A program made the translations under genes and the position numbers. From NCBI RefSeq assembly GCF_000271665.2, contig NZ_CP010978.1:1954501-2018500 (forward strand): 64,000 nucleotides of DNA. The letters are read 5' to 3'. Under the pieces are notes generated by a model. It worked only from the letters and a program-made list of their open reading frames with translations. It was not told where the DNA came from and ran no database searches. Below, piece by piece: positions 1 through 6,556 of this stretch (position 1 is its first letter; the number at the start of each line of letters is the position of its first letter). The stretch is from Pelosinus fermentans JBW45. GTDB lineage: Bacteria; Bacillota; Negativicutes; DSM-13327.

Positions 1-658
1 CGGCGGCCATGGCATTTTGCTCCTTTAAGGCGGCTGTAATTACGGACGGATCAAGACCTAAACGGGCCAGTTTGCTATTTTCGATTTCAATATAGATTTT
101 TTCGGTTTGCACCCCCAGGAGCTGGACTTTGCTTACGCTGGGAACGCTTAAGAGAACGCGGCGGATTTTTTCGGCTCTTTCCCGCATTTCCTCGTAGGTA
201 TACCCATCGCCGGTCAGCGTATAGATCACGCCATATACTTCATCGAACCGATCATTGAAGCTGGGTTGTGAAACGCCTTCCGGGAAGGTTCCTTTGATAT
301 CATTCACCATATTGCGGGCTTCCACCCATCTGGCCCGAAGCTCCTTGGCGGGCACCTGATCTTTGAGATTGACGTAGATCACCGTATATCCCGGTGTAGA
401 GTAACTTTTCAGATAGTCAAGCCCAGGAAGGTCCTGCAGTTTCTTTTCAATTTTATCCGTAACCTGCTCTTCCATCTGGCTGGCGGTGGCTCCTGACCAG
501 GCAACGCTGACAATCATTTGTTTAATGGCAAAATCCGGGTCTTCCATGCGTCCCACATTCTGATAGGAGAAGAGGCCGGCCACAAAAAAGAGGATGATAA
601 AGAAATAAATGAATTGTTTGTGGTTTAATGACCAGGCGGTAAGGTTAAAATGGCTCAT
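1..658 (-). CDS. RND-family efflux pump inner-membrane subunit (N-terminal part; runs off the window)
   Basis: About 219 N-terminal residues are visible. The protein begins MSHFNLTAWSLNHKQF, followed by a first membrane segment at about residues 17-32 (FIYFFIILFFVAGLF). The stretch GRMEDPDFAIKQM and the following porter-domain sequence are typical of AcrB/MexF-like RND proteins. The family pumps toxic compounds out of diderm cells by proton antiport, as a trimer with a membrane fusion protein and an outer-membrane channel. The start codon overlaps the stop of the upstream membrane-fusion gene by 4 nt (ATGA at 655-658), so the two are translationally coupled. The substrate cannot be told from sequence. 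The local base composition is visibly richer in GC than most of the window. Confidence 0.9.
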   Translation of the reverse strand, partial: MSHFNLTAWSLNHKQFIYFFIILFFVAGLFSYQNVGRMEDPDFAIKQMIVSVAWSGATASQMEEQVTDKIEKKLQDLPGLDYLKSYSTPGYTVIYVNLKDQVPAKELRARWVEARNMVNDIKGTFPEGVSQPSFNDRFDEVYGVIYTLTGDGYTYEEMRERAEKIRRVLLSVPSVSKVQLLGVQTEKIYIEIENSKLARLGLDPSVITAALKEQNAMAA

Positions 659-2991: not shown

Positions 2992-3107
2992 GATAAAAGA
3001 ATAATAAGAATGCCGGTGGAGAATGCTTATTTTGCCGGCATTTGTTGCGGAAGATCTCGTTATTTAAATTTCAATATGGCTAACAGGTAAACTATAAAGC
3101 GAATTTT

Positions 3108-3566
3108 TTATTCCTGCTGCTCCATGTGGTCAATATACTGCTCCAGCTCTTGCAAGATATCGCTGAGAAACAAATATTCTTCCGGCGTTAATGAATTAAT
3201 TTTTTTCATAATGCCGTTGTCAAAGGTTTCGTGAAATTCAAAGTGATGTTGAACGGCAATCCGGCCTTTGTCTGTCAACTCCAAAAGAATATTTTTTTTA
3301 TTGCCGGTTTCCTGATAACGGTAGACCAGATCTTTTTGGATGAGTTTATGGATGACCTTTGGCAGGGCGCTTTTGAAAATACCTTGTCGGTCTGCCAGTT
3401 CGGTCACGGTTATGCCTGGATGTTTGCCAATCATGTCGAGGGTATGAATTTCTGATGAGTATAAGAGCTTGTCTGTGCCGAATTTTTTTGGCTGTTTCAT
3501 TGCCTCAAACGATTTCCTTGACAATCTGAAAAAAGATTCCAGCATTTCTTTTCTTTGTTCCACCAT
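3108..3566 (-). CDS. MarR-family transcriptional regulator
   Basis: The 152-residue protein shows the MarR winged-helix pattern. A helical N-terminus is followed by a helix-turn-helix at about residues 50-78 (GITVTELADRQGIFKSALPK), a wing (YRYQETGNKKNILLELTDKG, about 82-101) and a C-terminal dimerisation helix. MarR proteins usually repress efflux or stress genes and their own gene, and release DNA on binding small phenolic or similar ligands. The ATG at 3566 has GAGGT 8 nt upstream. A CACCAGGTG palindrome at 3624-3638, about 60 bp before the start, fits autoregulation. Related palindromes upstream of fur and the RND operon suggest one small regulon. The inducer is unknown. Confidence 0.85.
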   Translation of the reverse strand: MVEQRKEMLESFFRLSRKSFEAMKQPKKFGTDKLLYSSEIHTLDMIGKHPGITVTELADRQGIFKSALPKVIHKLIQKDLVYRYQETGNKKNILLELTDKGRIAVQHHFEFHETFDNGIMKKINSLTPEEYLFLSDILQELEQYIDHMEQQE

Positions 3567-3623
3567 TGTTTTAACCTCATATCGTTAGTAATATGTCATG
3601 TTTTGATGTTCTATGATTATATT

Positions 3624-3638
3624 GTACACCAGGTGAAT
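3624..3638. promoter_or_regulatory. Palindromic operator candidate, copy 4 (MarR gene upstream region)
   Basis: GTACACCAGGTGAAT keeps the ACCAGGTGAA core. It lies 58-72 bp upstream of the MarR start codon, a position suited to autorepression. Confidence 0.6.
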
Positions 3639-3660
3639 TATTTGTCAAGCAAATTGCTAA

Positions 3661-3724
3661 ATATGCTCCTTCCTTGCAATAGACAGTTTTATTATTTCAA
3701 CTGTCTATTGCAAGGGGAGCATAT
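3661..3724. repeat. Long near-perfect hairpin, MITE- or IS-end-like
   Basis: The left arm at 3661-3686 and the right arm at 3701-3724 pair over 24 bp, with only a 2-nt bulge (TT at 3670-3671), around a 14-nt loop. The arms start with ATATGCTCC and end with CAATAGACAG. There is no T-run typical of a terminator. The arm length and inward-facing ends suggest a miniature element or the collapsed ends of an insertion sequence. It sits between the divergent upstream region of the MarR gene and the 3' end of a hypothetical gene. Confidence 0.6.
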
Positions 3725-3760
3725 CATAGTGACGGAAAGCAACGAGATTATGTATCTACT

Positions 3761-4054
3761 TTAAAGCTTTAAATATTTCCCCTCAGCCTCTTGTAAACAG
3801 TCTTTCAACATATCGAGAGAATCAATATTAGGAATTGTTTCTATTGTTTTTGATCCTTCAGTATTGCCCCAAACGTAGATAGTAGCATCAAATGATTTTT
3901 TTGCATTGTCTAGACCGCTTACTTCAAAAAAATAACCATTATCAAGCATAAGATAAATACAATTTTCAAAGTCAATTGTTTTAATAGTGTATCTATTGCC
4001 AAGTTTTCGTAAAACTTCTTTAATATTTTTCCCTGGGCTTTTAGTTTTAAGCAT
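3761..4054 (-). CDS. Hypothetical protein, 97 aa
   Basis: I do not recognise the family. The protein is soluble and mixed alpha/beta by eye, with a basic start (MLKTKSPGKNIKEVLRKLG) and an acidic, helical end. It has no signal peptide, membrane segment or obvious catalytic motif. The ATG at 4054 is preceded at 7 nt by AGAGGTG, so translation is well supported. It stands alone between the 3661 hairpin and a frameshifted ribbon-helix-helix gene, in a stretch of low coding density that looks like a site of past insertion. Confidence 0.6.
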   Translation of the reverse strand: MLKTKSPGKNIKEVLRKLGNRYTIKTIDFENCIYLMLDNGYFFEVSGLDNAKKSFDATIYVWGNTEGSKTIETIPNIDSLDMLKDCLQEAEGKYLKL

Positions 4055-4180
4055 ATTTTCACCTCTTTAAAGTAAGTATTCGACAAAAAGCAATGGGATT
4101 CCTATGTAGAGCAATTAGCTCAGAGATTTGCATCTGGAAGGAAGTGATTATTTTTTTACACGTCGACAGAAAGACGTACT

Positions 4181-4331
4181 ATGAAAAAACAAGATAAAGA
4201 AGTTAGAATAACGTTTCGCGTACCTACTGATATTTATGAAAAAATTGTTGAATCAGCACAAAAAAAATAGACGATCAGTTAATAATGAAATGGTTGTAGC
4301 ATTAGAACAATTCTTAGAAAAGAATAATTAA
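4181..4331 (+). pseudogene. Arc/MetJ-type ribbon-helix-helix protein, frameshifted at an A8 run
   Basis: Frame 1 gives MKKQDKEVRITFRVPTDIY, then EKIVESAQKK, and stops at TAG 4268-4270. The next frame continues RRSVNNEMVVALEQFLEKNN to TAA at 4329-4331. Joined, the product of about 49 residues has the Arc pattern: a beta strand (VRITFRVP), helix A, the turn (RRSVNNE) and helix B. The break falls at eight A residues (4260-4267), so a change of one base, a slippery programmed frameshift or a sequencing error are all possible. Such proteins are small DNA-binding repressors, often antitoxins or plasmid or phage regulators. No partner gene is evident and the ribosome site is weak. Confidence 0.6.
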
Positions 4332-4525
4332 TATGCATAAATTTAAGGAATGCAGATCTTATTAAGCTTTTACATTACTACTGATTATGGTATGAGCGTA
4401 TAGCAGATACGAAACAATACTGGTGACGGTATGACTAATGTTGACGTGAATAGTAAGAAATAGCCAATATTAATAGTATAAAAATCCTCCACATGGGAAT
4501 ATACTATTAAAGACATCTATTTCAA

Positions 4526-4554
4526 TTGACATATGCTTAATTATCAACTATATT
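4526..4554 (+). promoter_or_regulatory. Sigma-A-type promoter for the predicted antisense RNA
   Basis: TTGACA (4526-4531), a 17-nt spacer and TATATT (4549-4554) give a near-consensus promoter. Transcription should begin near 4561. No open reading frame with a ribosome site follows on this strand before the terminator at 4748-4777. Confidence 0.6.
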
Positions 4555-4584
4555 AATGGTAGAGCTAATTAAAAACGCCAAAAC

Positions 4585-4605
4585 GCCCCTGCTGGTAACA
4601 GGAGC
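4585..4605 (-). terminator. Intrinsic terminator of the 29-codon gene
   Basis: On the minus strand GCTCCTG and CAGGGGC pair over 7 bp (one G-U) around a 7-nt loop, followed by GTTTTGGCGTTTTT. It lies 27 nt past the stop codon at 4632. Confidence 0.5.
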
Positions 4606-4631
4606 ATTCTGGCACATAGGGATACTAGAGG

Positions 4632-4721
4632 CTAATTAAGAAGTGTATGTATGATCTTATAGATCACATATACAAATCCACCTGAAACTGTTATCTTGAA
4701 GGACTTAGTTTCAAAGTGCAT
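4632..4721 (-). CDS. Small peptide, 29 aa, candidate type I toxin or antisense-controlled peptide
   Basis: The ATG at 4719-4721 is preceded by AGGAGGTGA with a spacer of about 6 nt, one of the strongest ribosome sites in the window. The peptide reads MHFETKSFKIT and then VSGGFVYVIYKIIHTLLN. It is basic, with a hydrophobic or amphipathic second half that could enter or lie on the membrane. It has its own promoter (TATAAT at 4780-4785 and TTGAAT at 4802-4807, read on the minus strand), a stable 5' hairpin and a terminator at 4585-4605. The whole unit lies opposite a predicted antisense RNA. I do not recognise the peptide from a named toxin family, and toxicity is an inference from layout alone. 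Confidence 0.6.
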   Translation of the reverse strand: MHFETKSFKITVSGGFVYVIYKIIHTLLN

Positions 4722-4747
4722 AGTAAATCACCTCCTGTATTCAATTA

Positions 4748-4777
4748 GGGCAACCACTCACAATGGTTGTCCTTTTT
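4748..4777 (+). terminator. Intrinsic terminator of the antisense RNA; also 5' hairpin of the opposing mRNA
   Basis: GGGCAACCA and TGGTTGTCC pair over 9 bp (one G-U), followed by TTTTT at 4773-4777. On the minus strand the same palindrome falls at the very 5' end of the small-peptide transcript (start near 4773), where it could protect or structure the mRNA. Confidence 0.65.
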
Positions 4778-4779
4778 CT

Positions 4780-4807
4780 ATTATATAGGAAAATGTATAC
4801 TATTCAA
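4780..4807 (-). promoter_or_regulatory. Promoter of the 29-codon gene
   Basis: On the minus strand TTGAAT (4807-4802), a 16-nt spacer and TATAAT (4785-4780) form a good sigma-A promoter. It points at the small gene at 4632-4721, with a predicted start near 4773. Confidence 0.55.
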
Positions 4808-4953
4808 GAAAAAAGCCACCAGTTAGATTATAAATCTAATTGATTTTACATAGTTTCTATCCAATAAATCATTATTGCCAGCACAGAGGGGAACCAACCT
4901 ATATCTAACAATGATGATATAAAGACTGGATTAAATATCTTACTAAATAACAA

Positions 4954-5006
4954 TAGTGGGCAGCCAATACTGTAATCAACGTTACATATTGTCTGCTCAC
5001 TTTTTT
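4954..5006 (+). terminator. Intrinsic terminator with no obvious upstream gene
   Basis: Arms at 4954-4968 and 4987-5001 match at 13 of 15 positions and are followed by TTTTTT. No protein-coding frame with a ribosome site lies upstream on this strand back to 4777, so a small RNA or a decayed gene is the likely origin. Confidence 0.55.
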
Positions 5007-5079
5007 ATGTGGTTTACTGCTTAATTAGAATTACTTGTAAGAAAAGCACAATCATCAACTCAATGCGAAAATAGAAGTT

Positions 5080-5196
5080 ATGGCAAACGAATGGCAGATC
5101 ACGTCAGATGAAGCAGTTAGTTTGATAATAAAACTTAGCATTGGGCAAATAGTTGAAGATCGTGTAAGGAGTACAGCTATAATGGGTGCTAAATAA
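5080..5196 (+). CDS. Small hypothetical protein, 38 aa
   Basis: The frame ATG 5080 to TAA 5194-5196 encodes MANEWQITSDEAVSLIIKLS, then IGQIVEDRVRSTAIMGAK. It is soluble and helical by eye, and I do not recognise the family. The ribosome site is poor (AGAAG), which weakens the call. A strong intrinsic terminator starts 8 nt after the stop, which supports a transcribed unit ending here. It may be the tail of a larger, lost gene. Confidence 0.35.
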   Translation: MANEWQITSDEAVSLIIKLSIGQIVEDRVRSTAIMGAK

Positions 5197-5203
5197 GGTT
5201 TGT

Positions 5204-5232
5204 AAGGCAGGGGGAACTCCTGCCTTTTTTTA
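5204..5232 (+). terminator. Intrinsic terminator
   Basis: AAGGCAGG (5204-5211) and CCTGCCTT (5219-5226) pair perfectly over 8 bp, followed by a T-run to 5231. It closes the small frame at 5080-5196 and lies tail-to-tail with the CBO0543-like gene. Confidence 0.75.
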
Positions 5233-5258
5233 TTGCTCCAAAATCTTATTATAAAAAG

Positions 5259-5798
5259 TCACTCATTATCTATTTTATTTTCCTGGTCTTTTGGTAATAG
5301 TTTGGTTGCTGCCGGTTGTAAGTTAGTTGAAAAACTCCTTCTTTCAGAGCGGCTCCAAATACCCTCTTGCCATAGTTGAAAACCATATATTACAACACCA
5401 TGGAGACTAGCGAGTAAAACATTTTGTAAGGCAGTGATACCAACAGGCTGAAATATTCCCCTACCAACAAGGAAATAATCCAAAAACAAGTAAACAAATC
5501 CAAAATTCAATACTACATCCACTGCTAGATATAGCCCGAATCGTCCGTAAGTAGACCTTAGTAGCCACATAGTTGTTACAGGATTTAATCCAAAAAGATA
5601 CGAAACTGTTCGGAAAGGGTAAGCTGTTTCACTAATGATCCACCAATTGAACGTTTCACCTGCTTCAACCATTAATATGCTTGTAACTACACTGAATAAA
5701 GCGGTAGGCATAAATTGTTTTATGGTTTTCCTCTCCATAAAGAATAAAGTCAACCAAGGCACAATCAACATACTCCATAATATTACTTGATTACTCAT
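5259..5798 (-). CDS. CBO0543-like multi-pass membrane protein
   Basis: The 179-residue protein has about four or five hydrophobic segments (for example VILWSMLIVPWLTLFF near the start and LYLAVDVVLNFGFVYLFLDYF in the middle). It ends in a polar tail of about 35 residues. Its length, the WSMLIVPWLTLFFM start and the Tyr-Gly-Arg-Phe-Gly-Leu-Tyr region match the CBO0543 family of spore-forming Firmicutes, whose function is unknown. The ATG at 5798 has AGGAGG 8 nt upstream. It is monocistronic, pointing away from the siderophore operon. Confidence 0.75.
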   Translation of the reverse strand: MSNQVILWSMLIVPWLTLFFMERKTIKQFMPTALFSVVTSILMVEAGETFNWWIISETAYPFRTVSYLFGLNPVTTMWLLRSTYGRFGLYLAVDVVLNFGFVYLFLDYFLVGRGIFQPVGITALQNVLLASLHGVVIYGFQLWQEGIWSRSERRSFSTNLQPAATKLLPKDQENKIDNE

Positions 5799-5993
5799 AG
5801 TGAGTCCTCCTGTATGTTCGAATATAGGTAGTTTATCCAGTCGGTTGCAATCAATACATGGGGCATAAGAGGTTTTATTATATAGGCGTGATAGTATGTA
5901 TTAGTGGATTAAGTATTAAATGAATTTAGAAAATTAAATTAGAAGCTAAACAGGTTTTATTTGGATTCCCCGGTGTGTCACCAGTAATTTCGA

Positions 5994-6020
5994 GGGTTTG
6001 CAGAGATGCAAGTCCTTTTT
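5994..6020 (+). terminator. Hairpin with T-run, terminator-like
   Basis: GGGTTTGCA and TGCAAGTCC pair over 9 bp with two G-U pairs and a GAGA loop, followed by TTTTT. It lies in a gene-free stretch (5799-6197), so the transcript it ends is unknown and may be a small RNA or leader. Confidence 0.45.
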
Positions 6021-6078
6021 ATGTTAACTGAGTCTTTTTTAGCAAACACCAAATAACTTAATAATAGATAAAAAAATT

Positions 6079-6103
6079 AGCAGGCTATTTTGCCTGCTTT
6101 TTT
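6079..6103 (+). terminator. Intrinsic terminator
   Basis: AGCAGGC and GCCTGCT pair perfectly over 7 bp around a 6-nt loop and are followed by a long T-run. No gene lies directly upstream on the plus strand. Runs of A before the stem mean that it could also work on the minus strand, toward the CBO0543-like gene. Confidence 0.65.
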
Positions 6104-6197
6104 GTTTTTTCAATAGTTGACTGCATAATTTGACTAATTTATGCAGTCACTAGGGGAAATTTGCATGCCTAGTTCTTTGTAGTAGGGGGTGAATTAT

Positions 6198-6332
6198 ATG
6201 GTATATAATATAACGTTAAATTTCACACTCCATATTCGCCGCAGAATTCTACTTAGAGAATATTATCGAAAAAAATACATTGATATTTGGGGAAATATCC
6301 ATTTACTGGTATTTTCTAAATTGGTATTATAG
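6198..6332 (+). CDS. Possible small protein, 44 aa, upstream of the Fur box
   Basis: ATG 6198 follows AGGGGGTGA at a good distance. The frame runs to TAG at 6330-6332 and encodes a basic peptide beginning MVYNITLNFTLHIRRRILLR. I do not recognise it, and composition alone does not prove coding. It ends 10 bp before the Fur box, so it is not part of the Fur-controlled transcript if that box overlaps the dhb promoter. It may be a leader peptide or a chance frame. Confidence 0.3.
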   Translation: MVYNITLNFTLHIRRRILLREYYRKKYIDIWGNIHLLVFSKLVL

Positions 6333-6341
6333 TAAATAATG

Positions 6342-6364
6342 ATATTGATAATTATTATCAATAT
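6342..6364. promoter_or_regulatory. Fur box in front of the siderophore operon
   Basis: A perfect 23-bp dyad has the core TGATAATTATTATCA at 6346-6360, identical to the 7-1-7 Fur consensus TGATAATNATTATCA of Bacillus. It lies 193 bp upstream of the dhbA start, so the operon is very likely repressed by Fe2+-Fur. The Fur-family protein at 2330-2812 is the nearest candidate regulator. Confidence 0.9.
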
Positions 6365-6556
6365 GTTGTTTGAAAGAAGTATTCATAATAGAAGATGGGG
6401 GGACGATCACTGTAACTTTATTAGAGTTATATTAATTTCTGATATTAAATAATAATATGCAATAATATCATGAGTAACTCAAATTATGTTTTTATTCTTG
6501 AGGATAGCGTCATATTTTAGTTTATCGGTCAAAGTTGAAAAAAAGGAAATGGTAAG

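Follow-up and report, generated by a model that had tools for sequence, protein, structure and literature searches.

A candidate type I toxin-antitoxin family of the Negativicutes, with unrelated hydrophobic peptides in what appears to be one RNA frame

We describe a small locus of Pelosinus fermentans JBW45 that we read, with a probability of roughly 80%, as a type I toxin-antitoxin locus belonging to a family of the Negativicutes. It lies in the window, by which we mean the whole 64,000-nucleotide stretch of DNA that was analysed. The type I reading had been put forward in an initial annotation, and comparison with relatives supports it: the peptide, its Shine-Dalgarno sequence (SD), the antisense promoter, the 5′ hairpin and the terminator all appear as conserved parts of the putative system. 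Judged from sequence, two or more hydrophobic peptides with no relation to each other are framed by the same leader, tail and antisense promoter. This reuse of the frame goes beyond the initial annotation, as do the number of copies in this genome, the predicted pairing of the SD with post-stop sequence and the link to prophages.

The features of the window locus are collected in Table 1. Direct reading and the list of open reading frames (ORFs) bear out the 29-codon minus-strand gene and its ribosome site; the encoded peptide is MHFETKSFKITVSGGFVYVIYKIIHTLLN (minus-strand ORF 4721-4632). The two promoters that had been proposed, one on the minus strand for the mRNA and one on the plus strand for the antisense RNA, are both present, and the placement of the latter recurs in other copies. 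The 5′ hairpin, which together with a T run forms the plus-strand terminator, was likewise found, and it is conserved in the copies. As for the mRNA terminator, one does stand at the 4605-4585 originally claimed, but its stem is longer (4615-4575). The predicted mRNA is about 204 nt long (4773 to 4570, minus strand), its ends being inferred solely from promoter and terminator positions, and the antisense RNA of about 217 nt that had been proposed to cover it completely would do so if it runs from promoter to terminator as predicted.

Table 1. Features of the candidate locus and of its neighbours, in window coordinates
Feature	Position	Strand	Basis or remark
Arc-like phage repressor remnant, in two frames	4181-4331	plus	Pfam Arc, E 1.3e-06, frames joined
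Predicted antisense promoter TTGACA-17-TATATT	4526-4554	plus	11/12 consensus letters; placement shared with other copies
Predicted antisense (antitoxin) RNA, about 217 nt	4561-4777	plus	Promoter and terminator positions; would span the entire predicted mRNA
mRNA terminator hairpin, then T run	4575-4615	minus	100% of cells paired in 14-copy alignment
Anti-SD, 3′ arm of the long-distance helix, GCCUCU + GUAU	4622-4632	minus	Window minimum free energy (MFE) and centroid folds; 14-copy RNAalifold; arm starts at the last base of the stop codon (4632)
29-codon ORF (class 1A peptide), ATG to TAG included	4632-4721	minus	Sequence reading and ORF list
ORF hairpin 2	4640-4678	minus	Covaries in 14 copies
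ORF hairpin 1, codons 2-5 with codons 11-15	4679-4718	minus	Covaries in 14 copies
SD AGGAGGTGA, 6 nt ahead of ATG	4728-4736	minus	GGAGG hardly varies over 35 aligned copies
5′ arm of the long-distance helix, AUAC + GGAGGU, SD within	4730-4740	minus	Predicted folds
Leader motif AATTGAATAC (consensus AAACTGAATAC), after the 5′ hairpin and ahead of the SD	4737-4746	minus	35-copy alignment
Hairpin at predicted mRNA 5′ end	4747-4773	minus	Plus-strand reading is the antisense terminator stem
Antisense terminator-like hairpin	4747-4773 + T run	plus	
mRNA promoter TTGAAT-16-TATAAT	4780-4807	minus	10/12 consensus letters
Small conserved gene, truncated 3′ part	4863-4970	plus	Relatives read ...SSSGKSIIIASTEGNQSIPSNDDIKIGLNIYTK, at several places in the genus

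Promoter-like matches in this AT-rich stretch are no commoner than in shuffled sequence (7 found, 7.0 expected), so that a single locus can hardly prove itself, while its relatives can. Terminator-like hairpins numbered 3 against 0.4 expected, and the antisense promoter was the sole one better than all 200 shuffles of its stretch. What lifts the window locus above chance is its conservation, since further copies exist, the antisense promoter recurs in them, and the predicted fold of the mRNA (-72.3 kcal/mol) reaches a z-score of -5.64 against shuffles. For the antisense RNA the fold has a z-score of -3.64, with 1 of 200 shuffles as good.

By DNA search the window genome proved to have a further copy of the locus, with 78% identity over 219 bp, and another genome of the same genus (G002) holds a copy with the same 29-codon ORF, whose peptide is 62% identical to that of the window. 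Two other DNA matches in the genus (L006, L007) were rejected, being matches of 20-21 letters in what looked by eye like a gene for an Fe-S reductase, and a tblastn search of phage and plasmid records with the G002 peptide gave no match. A first-round profile of two rows (E<=0.05) matched 26 of 380 genomes of the class, chance matches included; the class profile of 25 rows, most of them matches from that round, gave 40 matches in 24 of 380 Negativicutes genomes at E<=0.01. By the initial annotation the reading would fall if related genomes did not conserve the peptide or its ribosome site, the only such point open to computation, and both are conserved, the peptide in these 24 genomes and the SD almost without variation over 35 aligned copies. 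A sample of 398 genomes of the phylum returned two matches, the window's own genome and a weak one without start or SD. Of the six matches of a collection-wide pattern scan, those in Sporomusa ovata (L040) and Pelosinus (L041) were real, three were chance matches (L038, L039, L043) and one (L042) was without a candidate. Both genera that could be named from the matches, Pelosinus and Sporomusa, belong to the Negativicutes, and as far as seen the peptide family appears to be restricted to this class. Chance matches (L012(+), L038, L039, L043) were removed before copies were extracted, and four cut or degenerate copies (L017, L028, L035, L045) and one at a contig end (L019) were kept out of the 35-copy alignment.

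The class 1 peptides form three subfamilies: A unites the window with Sporomusa and others; B, whose peptides mostly show a VSDW motif, covers the window's genus and its neighbours; and C, with peptides of 28-33 aa, includes genomes of family f20. Length is 29 aa in 24 of 25 aligned full-length peptides and 28 aa in the other. Four copies occur in the window genome; in one of these (L002, the paralog at G000:2480378) a TGA interrupts the ORF, and this copy was left out of the pN/pS pairs. Pooled pN/pS was 0.41 for A (78 pairs, 13 copies), 0.35 for B (78 pairs) and 0.42 for C (9 pairs), which indicates that selection acts on the peptide, the ratios being descriptive because the copies are related and RNA structure also constrains silent sites. 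The conserved peptide is cationic and hydrophobic, with a net charge of +2 and a hydrophobic stretch from about residue 10 in the window copy; hydrophobicity in class 1 is moderate (GRAVY 0.56 for the window). A small hydrophobic peptide under protein-level selection, such as a type I system calls for, was thus found.

When the leader alone was searched for (AACTGAATA, 0-4 nt, GGAGGTG), 42 matches were obtained in 21 of the 380 class genomes, the window's own variant not being among them; the reversed leader pattern, as a control, gave 0 matches in the same 380 genomes. At 17 of the 40 leader places listed, the peptide that follows has no relation to class 1; ten of these peptides belong to class 2 and seven to class 3. 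Class 2 (consensus MWISPRVIVWLIIALTIILLKPxxITIWLR) gave 15 matches in 12 of 380 genomes, and class 3, exemplified by LKFRFFLELDGTVLVKVVALIAFTLKVLFT, has a TTG start in 5 of 7 cases. One genome (G080) has an expanded set of 12 leader matches; of the loci read there, six encode class 3 peptides, four with a TTG start. Both classes share the 5′ hairpin, the terminator and the antisense promoter with class 1; class 2 also has the post-stop pairing, which is weaker in class 3. The ORFs in the slot differ but are always hydrophobic, with 28-33 aa.

The best of 815 cross-class pairs joins a class 1 locus (L016) and a class 2 locus (L154) of the same genome (G303). Their identity is 90% across 60 nt upstream and 89% across 80 nt downstream, whereas their ORFs are 53% alike, the same as the codon-shuffled null (53%), and their peptides align no better than shuffles (p 0.20). 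The next 13 cross-class pairs listed resemble this one. Over the 815 pairs the median identity was 0.65 upstream, 0.51 in the ORF and 0.62 downstream, against an upstream null of about 0.49. By this sequence comparison the shared frame is general, and it is strongest between classes 1A and 2.

From 5′ to 3′ the copies share a -10, a hairpin about 7 nt on, AAACTGAATA(C), the SD and the ORF; the stop codon is followed by sequence of the CCTCC-GTATT type (clearest in subfamily A), the terminator and then the antisense promoter. The hairpin region was poorly aligned in the leader-only alignment. In the window mRNA a long-distance helix is predicted by both the MFE and the centroid fold, and RNAalifold on 14 class A copies returned, unprompted, a 5′ stem, a helix between the SD and the post-stop sequence, two hairpins in the ORF and the terminator. 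In these copies paired cells make up 94.2% of the structure as a whole, the covariation score is 0.263 against 0.163 in shuffles (0 of 500 as high) and 0.07-0.12 with partners slid, and both-sided changes occur in 44 cells against 15.7 in shuffles. Much of the covariation signal comes from the ORF hairpins, which alone score 0.322 against 0.178, with 26 both-sided cells against 9.6 (0 of 500 shuffles in each case). Pairs with a both-sided change in these hairpins (6 against 4.3; 74 of 500 shuffles) were not above shuffles, nor were further pair types in the hairpins or the whole structure.

The helix between SD and post-stop sequence is by itself 93.4% paired in subfamily A and shows no both-sided (compensatory) change there, so that its conservation could partly follow from that of the SD. 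A per-copy RNAduplex test of the long-distance helix reached p<=0.05 in only 4 of 34 copies. When pairing was computed by partition function for 59 distinct copies, the mean was 0.58, and shuffling of the 22-nt tail lowered it to 0.34 (Wilcoxon p 4.5e-9, on copies that are related). By class, the values with real and shuffled tails were 0.69 and 0.34 (1A), 0.57 and 0.41 (1B), 0.75 and 0.37 (2) and 0.47 and 0.16 (3), and subfamily 1C showed no excess (0.35 and 0.33); pairing above 0.5 was seen in 13 of 16 class 1A copies and in all 11 of class 2. With the tail cut off, the predicted unpaired fraction of the SD rises from a mean of 0.17 to 0.38 in class 1A and from 0.19 to 0.26 in the window copy, where the SD stays mostly paired even without its tail, so that simple release by trimming is not predicted for this copy. 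Taken over the family, these models make occlusion of the SD in the full-length mRNA likely. A near-twin (L071, of L070) was left out of the duplex, promoter, pN/pS, pairing and antisense -10 tests; L147, L135, L130, L085 and rows identical to another were left out of the pairing and antisense -10 counts.

On the antisense strand, TATAAT at stop+45..110 was found in 13 of 16 copies of class 1A (3.2 expected), 8 of 12 of 1C (1.6), 10 of 10 of class 2 (2.5) and 7 of 7 of class 3 (2.5), against 0 in all four classes for the mRNA strand of the same stretch. In class 1B the counts were 2 of 13 (1.2 expected) on the antisense strand and 1 of 13 on the mRNA strand. In the window copy and in its paralog L002 the hexamer reads TATATT instead of TATAAT and is accompanied by a perfect TTGACA. 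Against shuffles, the best antisense promoter reached p<=0.05 in 11 of 14 copies of class A, and in class 1B the scores showed no clear gain (lowest p 0.05). For classes 1A, 1C, 2 and 3 the promoter placement thus points to a gene for an antisense RNA complementary to the peptide mRNA, as a type I system requires. The best 1B site (in L029, L052 and L053, for example) is TTCTAA 16-18 nt before an AT-rich -10; of the 13 copies, 9 have it on the antisense strand and 7 on the mRNA strand, and its presence in both opposed promoters suggests a common non-standard sigma factor or regulator.

The promoter of the mRNA shows a -10-like hexamer within ATG-75..-45 in 15 of 16 class 1A copies, and the -35 ahead of its TATAAT has at most 3 of 6 letters in 10 of 13 class A copies other than the window's. 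The antisense promoters of class A look stronger than those of the mRNA, which is the asymmetry expected if an antitoxin must exceed its toxin. A further hairpin upstream of the mRNA promoter, mostly with flanking A and T runs, was seen in 6 of 14 class A copies and may be the antisense terminator there. A protein coded on the antisense strand was rejected for class 1A, where the longest ATG ORFs have 0-25 aa; antisense ATG frames are kept in classes 1B (29-39 aa) and 1C (16-53 aa), and we take these as by-products of relatedness.

The locus had been described as lying in a low-density region with decayed genes, and its surroundings agree with this: the window copy stands between the out-of-frame remnant of an Arc-like repressor and a truncated small gene (Table 1). 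The latter, at 4863-4970, was also considered as an RNA element and rejected, being the remnant of a small protein gene, one relative of which gave no Pfam match. Conservation of the MarR side (3000-3650) extends to four other genomes within the genus; the stretch 3660-6500 is found in one piece in none of these four, and parts of it (about 3758-4179, 4863-4969 and 5961-6500) recur elsewhere. A near-perfect palindromic hairpin of about 65-70 bp at 3659-3728 recurs in the window genome and in relatives, with several examples in G003, many of them near contig ends, and is probably a small dispersed repeat. The gene-poor, decayed neighbourhood might suggest that in the window such a system survives only as a dead copy, as might the internal TGA of the paralog at G000:2480378 and the window's own long-distance pairing, which is no stronger than with shuffled tails (0.79 against 0.67, 8 of 30 shuffles as high). 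We consider this unlikely, given that ORF and SD are intact, that two near-consensus promoters and the terminators are in place, and that the mRNA combines its low z-score with all of the conserved helices.

Copies are carried by prophages as well as by chromosomal loci. Eight viral contigs have members (L113, L125, L132, L140, L142, L144, L162 and L163). The viral leader scan, with 36 loci, comprised the first six of these, one possible member and 29 unrelated loci; two further viral pattern scans yielded three real loci out of four (L161 being a chance match inside a phage gene) and four out of four. L132 and L142 directly adjoin an integrase (phrog_95), L140 adjoins a phage structural gene and L125 lies about 4 kb from a baseplate gene. 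The possible member, L130 (IMGVR_UViG_3300048928_000238, 2278-2400), perhaps a distant one, combines the leader motif and a long 5′ hairpin with a peptide of 31 aa, MLYIKTSNFEALVSSRFIIMLAIMIYYMHIT. A phage-type gene (phrog_1558) is found close to the second copy in the window genome, as is a Cro/C1-type repressor, and a Sporomusa ovata copy (L017/L040) runs into an IS110-type transposase region. A decayed copy (L045, G091:C27) lies just before what appear by eye to be CRISPR repeats; several C. difficile type I pairs are associated with CRISPR arrays, according to PMC6563280.

In several species of the genus, some 29-aa class 1B copies have the same chromosomal flanks, as would be expected of a housekeeping gene, and this, with the only moderate hydrophobicity of the peptide, could fit an antisense-regulated small membrane protein that is no toxin and modulates a membrane complex or the envelope, the antisense RNA setting its dose. 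Such a role seems to us slightly less probable even than a dead window copy: presence is patchy (24 of 380 genomes), paralogs are multiple, prophages carry the locus and some copies are decayed, and unrelated peptides in the same RNA frame are hard to square with one housekeeping function. That the conserved object is a structured RNA pair (a regulatory RNA or part of an element) with an incidental ORF, as the strong conserved RNA structure, the antisense promoter and the conservation of leader and tail without the ORF might suggest, is highly improbable in view of the pN/pS of 0.35-0.42, the near-constant 29 codons, the consensus SD and start, and the different yet always hydrophobic 28-33-aa ORFs in the slot.

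With the type I reading preferred, the following model can be proposed. The full-length mRNA would be translationally silent at birth, its SD held by the post-stop sequence and by the ORF hairpins, and the fully complementary antisense RNA, made from the stronger-looking promoter, would bind it and lead to its degradation. Should the antisense supply stop, through loss of the element or stress, 3′-trimmed mRNA lacking the post-stop arm would be translated, and the peptide would insert into the (inner) membrane of its own cell and stop growth. Trimming, membrane insertion and toxicity we infer by analogy with other systems. The peptide ORF would, moreover, be exchanged within a constant RNA frame. 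With more doubt than confidence, we suggest that the RNA part is a constant, exchangeable platform, made up of leader hairpin, SD leader, post-stop anti-SD, terminator and antisense promoter, in which unrelated killer peptides are swapped between the start and the stop codon, and that the antisense RNA acts in trans across loci; the antisense RNA of one locus could do so because leader and tail are up to about 90% alike within a genome. Resident copies might then protect the host against incoming prophage copies with another peptide, an immunity at the RNA level that is independent of toxin sequence. Cross-protection by the antisense RNAs of paralogous loci thereby becomes directly testable.

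The claim that the peptide represents a new family holds against Pfam, NCBIfam, PHROGs, PADLOC and Rfam. Searches of Pfam and NCBIfam with 2 + 9 member peptides returned 0 families at E<=10, in a setting where HMMER filters can drop such short weak matches. Pfam holds models of TxpA/BsrG, Fst/Ldr, Ibs, TisB and Hok, none of which matched the member peptides in this search. PHROGs and PADLOC gave no match to the family peptides. Rfam had no match at the locus, with six below-gathering matches elsewhere (the palindrome at about 3660-3725; 4942-5013), and gave only an unrelated tRNA for 19 member loci. A literature search, in which subscription journals were scarcely covered, found nothing on type I systems in the Negativicutes or its genera. 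The present family adds peptide families that are modelled in none of the databases used, and the peptide swap in one RNA frame offers a way of finding further toxins by their RNA frame rather than by peptide similarity, which is useful because such similarity is weak for proteins this short.

Among known systems, hok/sok has a full-length mRNA that is silent by SD/anti-SD pairing and is activated by 3′ trimming, with a toxin of about 50 aa that is plasmid-borne. The family described here would resemble it in its silent full-length mRNA, held by SD/anti-SD pairing, and by analogy in trimming; it differs in peptide length and setting, and in having no Pfam match. TxpA/BsrG and the C. difficile CD/RCd pairs are closer in phylum, being systems of Bacillota in which a small hydrophobic peptide stands against a cis antisense RNA in a prophage setting. 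Antitoxins of the BsrG type overlap the 3′ end of their mRNA. In contrast to the peptides described here, which match no Pfam family, the toxins of B. subtilis (28-60 aa) and C. difficile (34-59 aa) have charged C-termini, and their loci are mostly in prophages or prophage-like regions (PMC6563280).

AapA/IsoA is similar in several respects: a cationic peptide of about 30 aa with one membrane helix, a cis antisense RNA and several paralogs per genome, the likeness of the peptides being judged by description and the member peptides having no Pfam or NCBIfam family match. PMC6733600 describes a full-length AapA3 mRNA that is inert through end-to-end SD/anti-SD pairing and activated by 3′ trimming, the antisense IsoA3 catching it first, and mentions hok mRNA folding alongside; AapA1 sits in the inner membrane (PMC8309996). 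An SD held by an anti-SD at the 3′ end, as a long-distance interaction, is what our models predict too. AapA/IsoA is known from Epsilonproteobacteria (PMC6733600), another phylum, whereas our relatives were found in the window's class, with profile searches that covered this class and the phylum sample. The present family differs further in its carriage by prophages, in the unrelated peptides within one RNA frame and in a predicted antisense RNA that covers the whole mRNA. We file it as a candidate type I family of its own, and as a member of neither AapA/IsoA nor TxpA/BsrG. According to PMC12390103 (2025), type I systems were known only from Proteobacteria, Firmicutes and Tenericutes, and the Negativicutes are Bacillota with an outer membrane (PMC5007114). 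Since they fall within Firmicutes sensu lato, the phylum is not new for such systems, and it is the class, the peptides and the shared frame that appear to be new.
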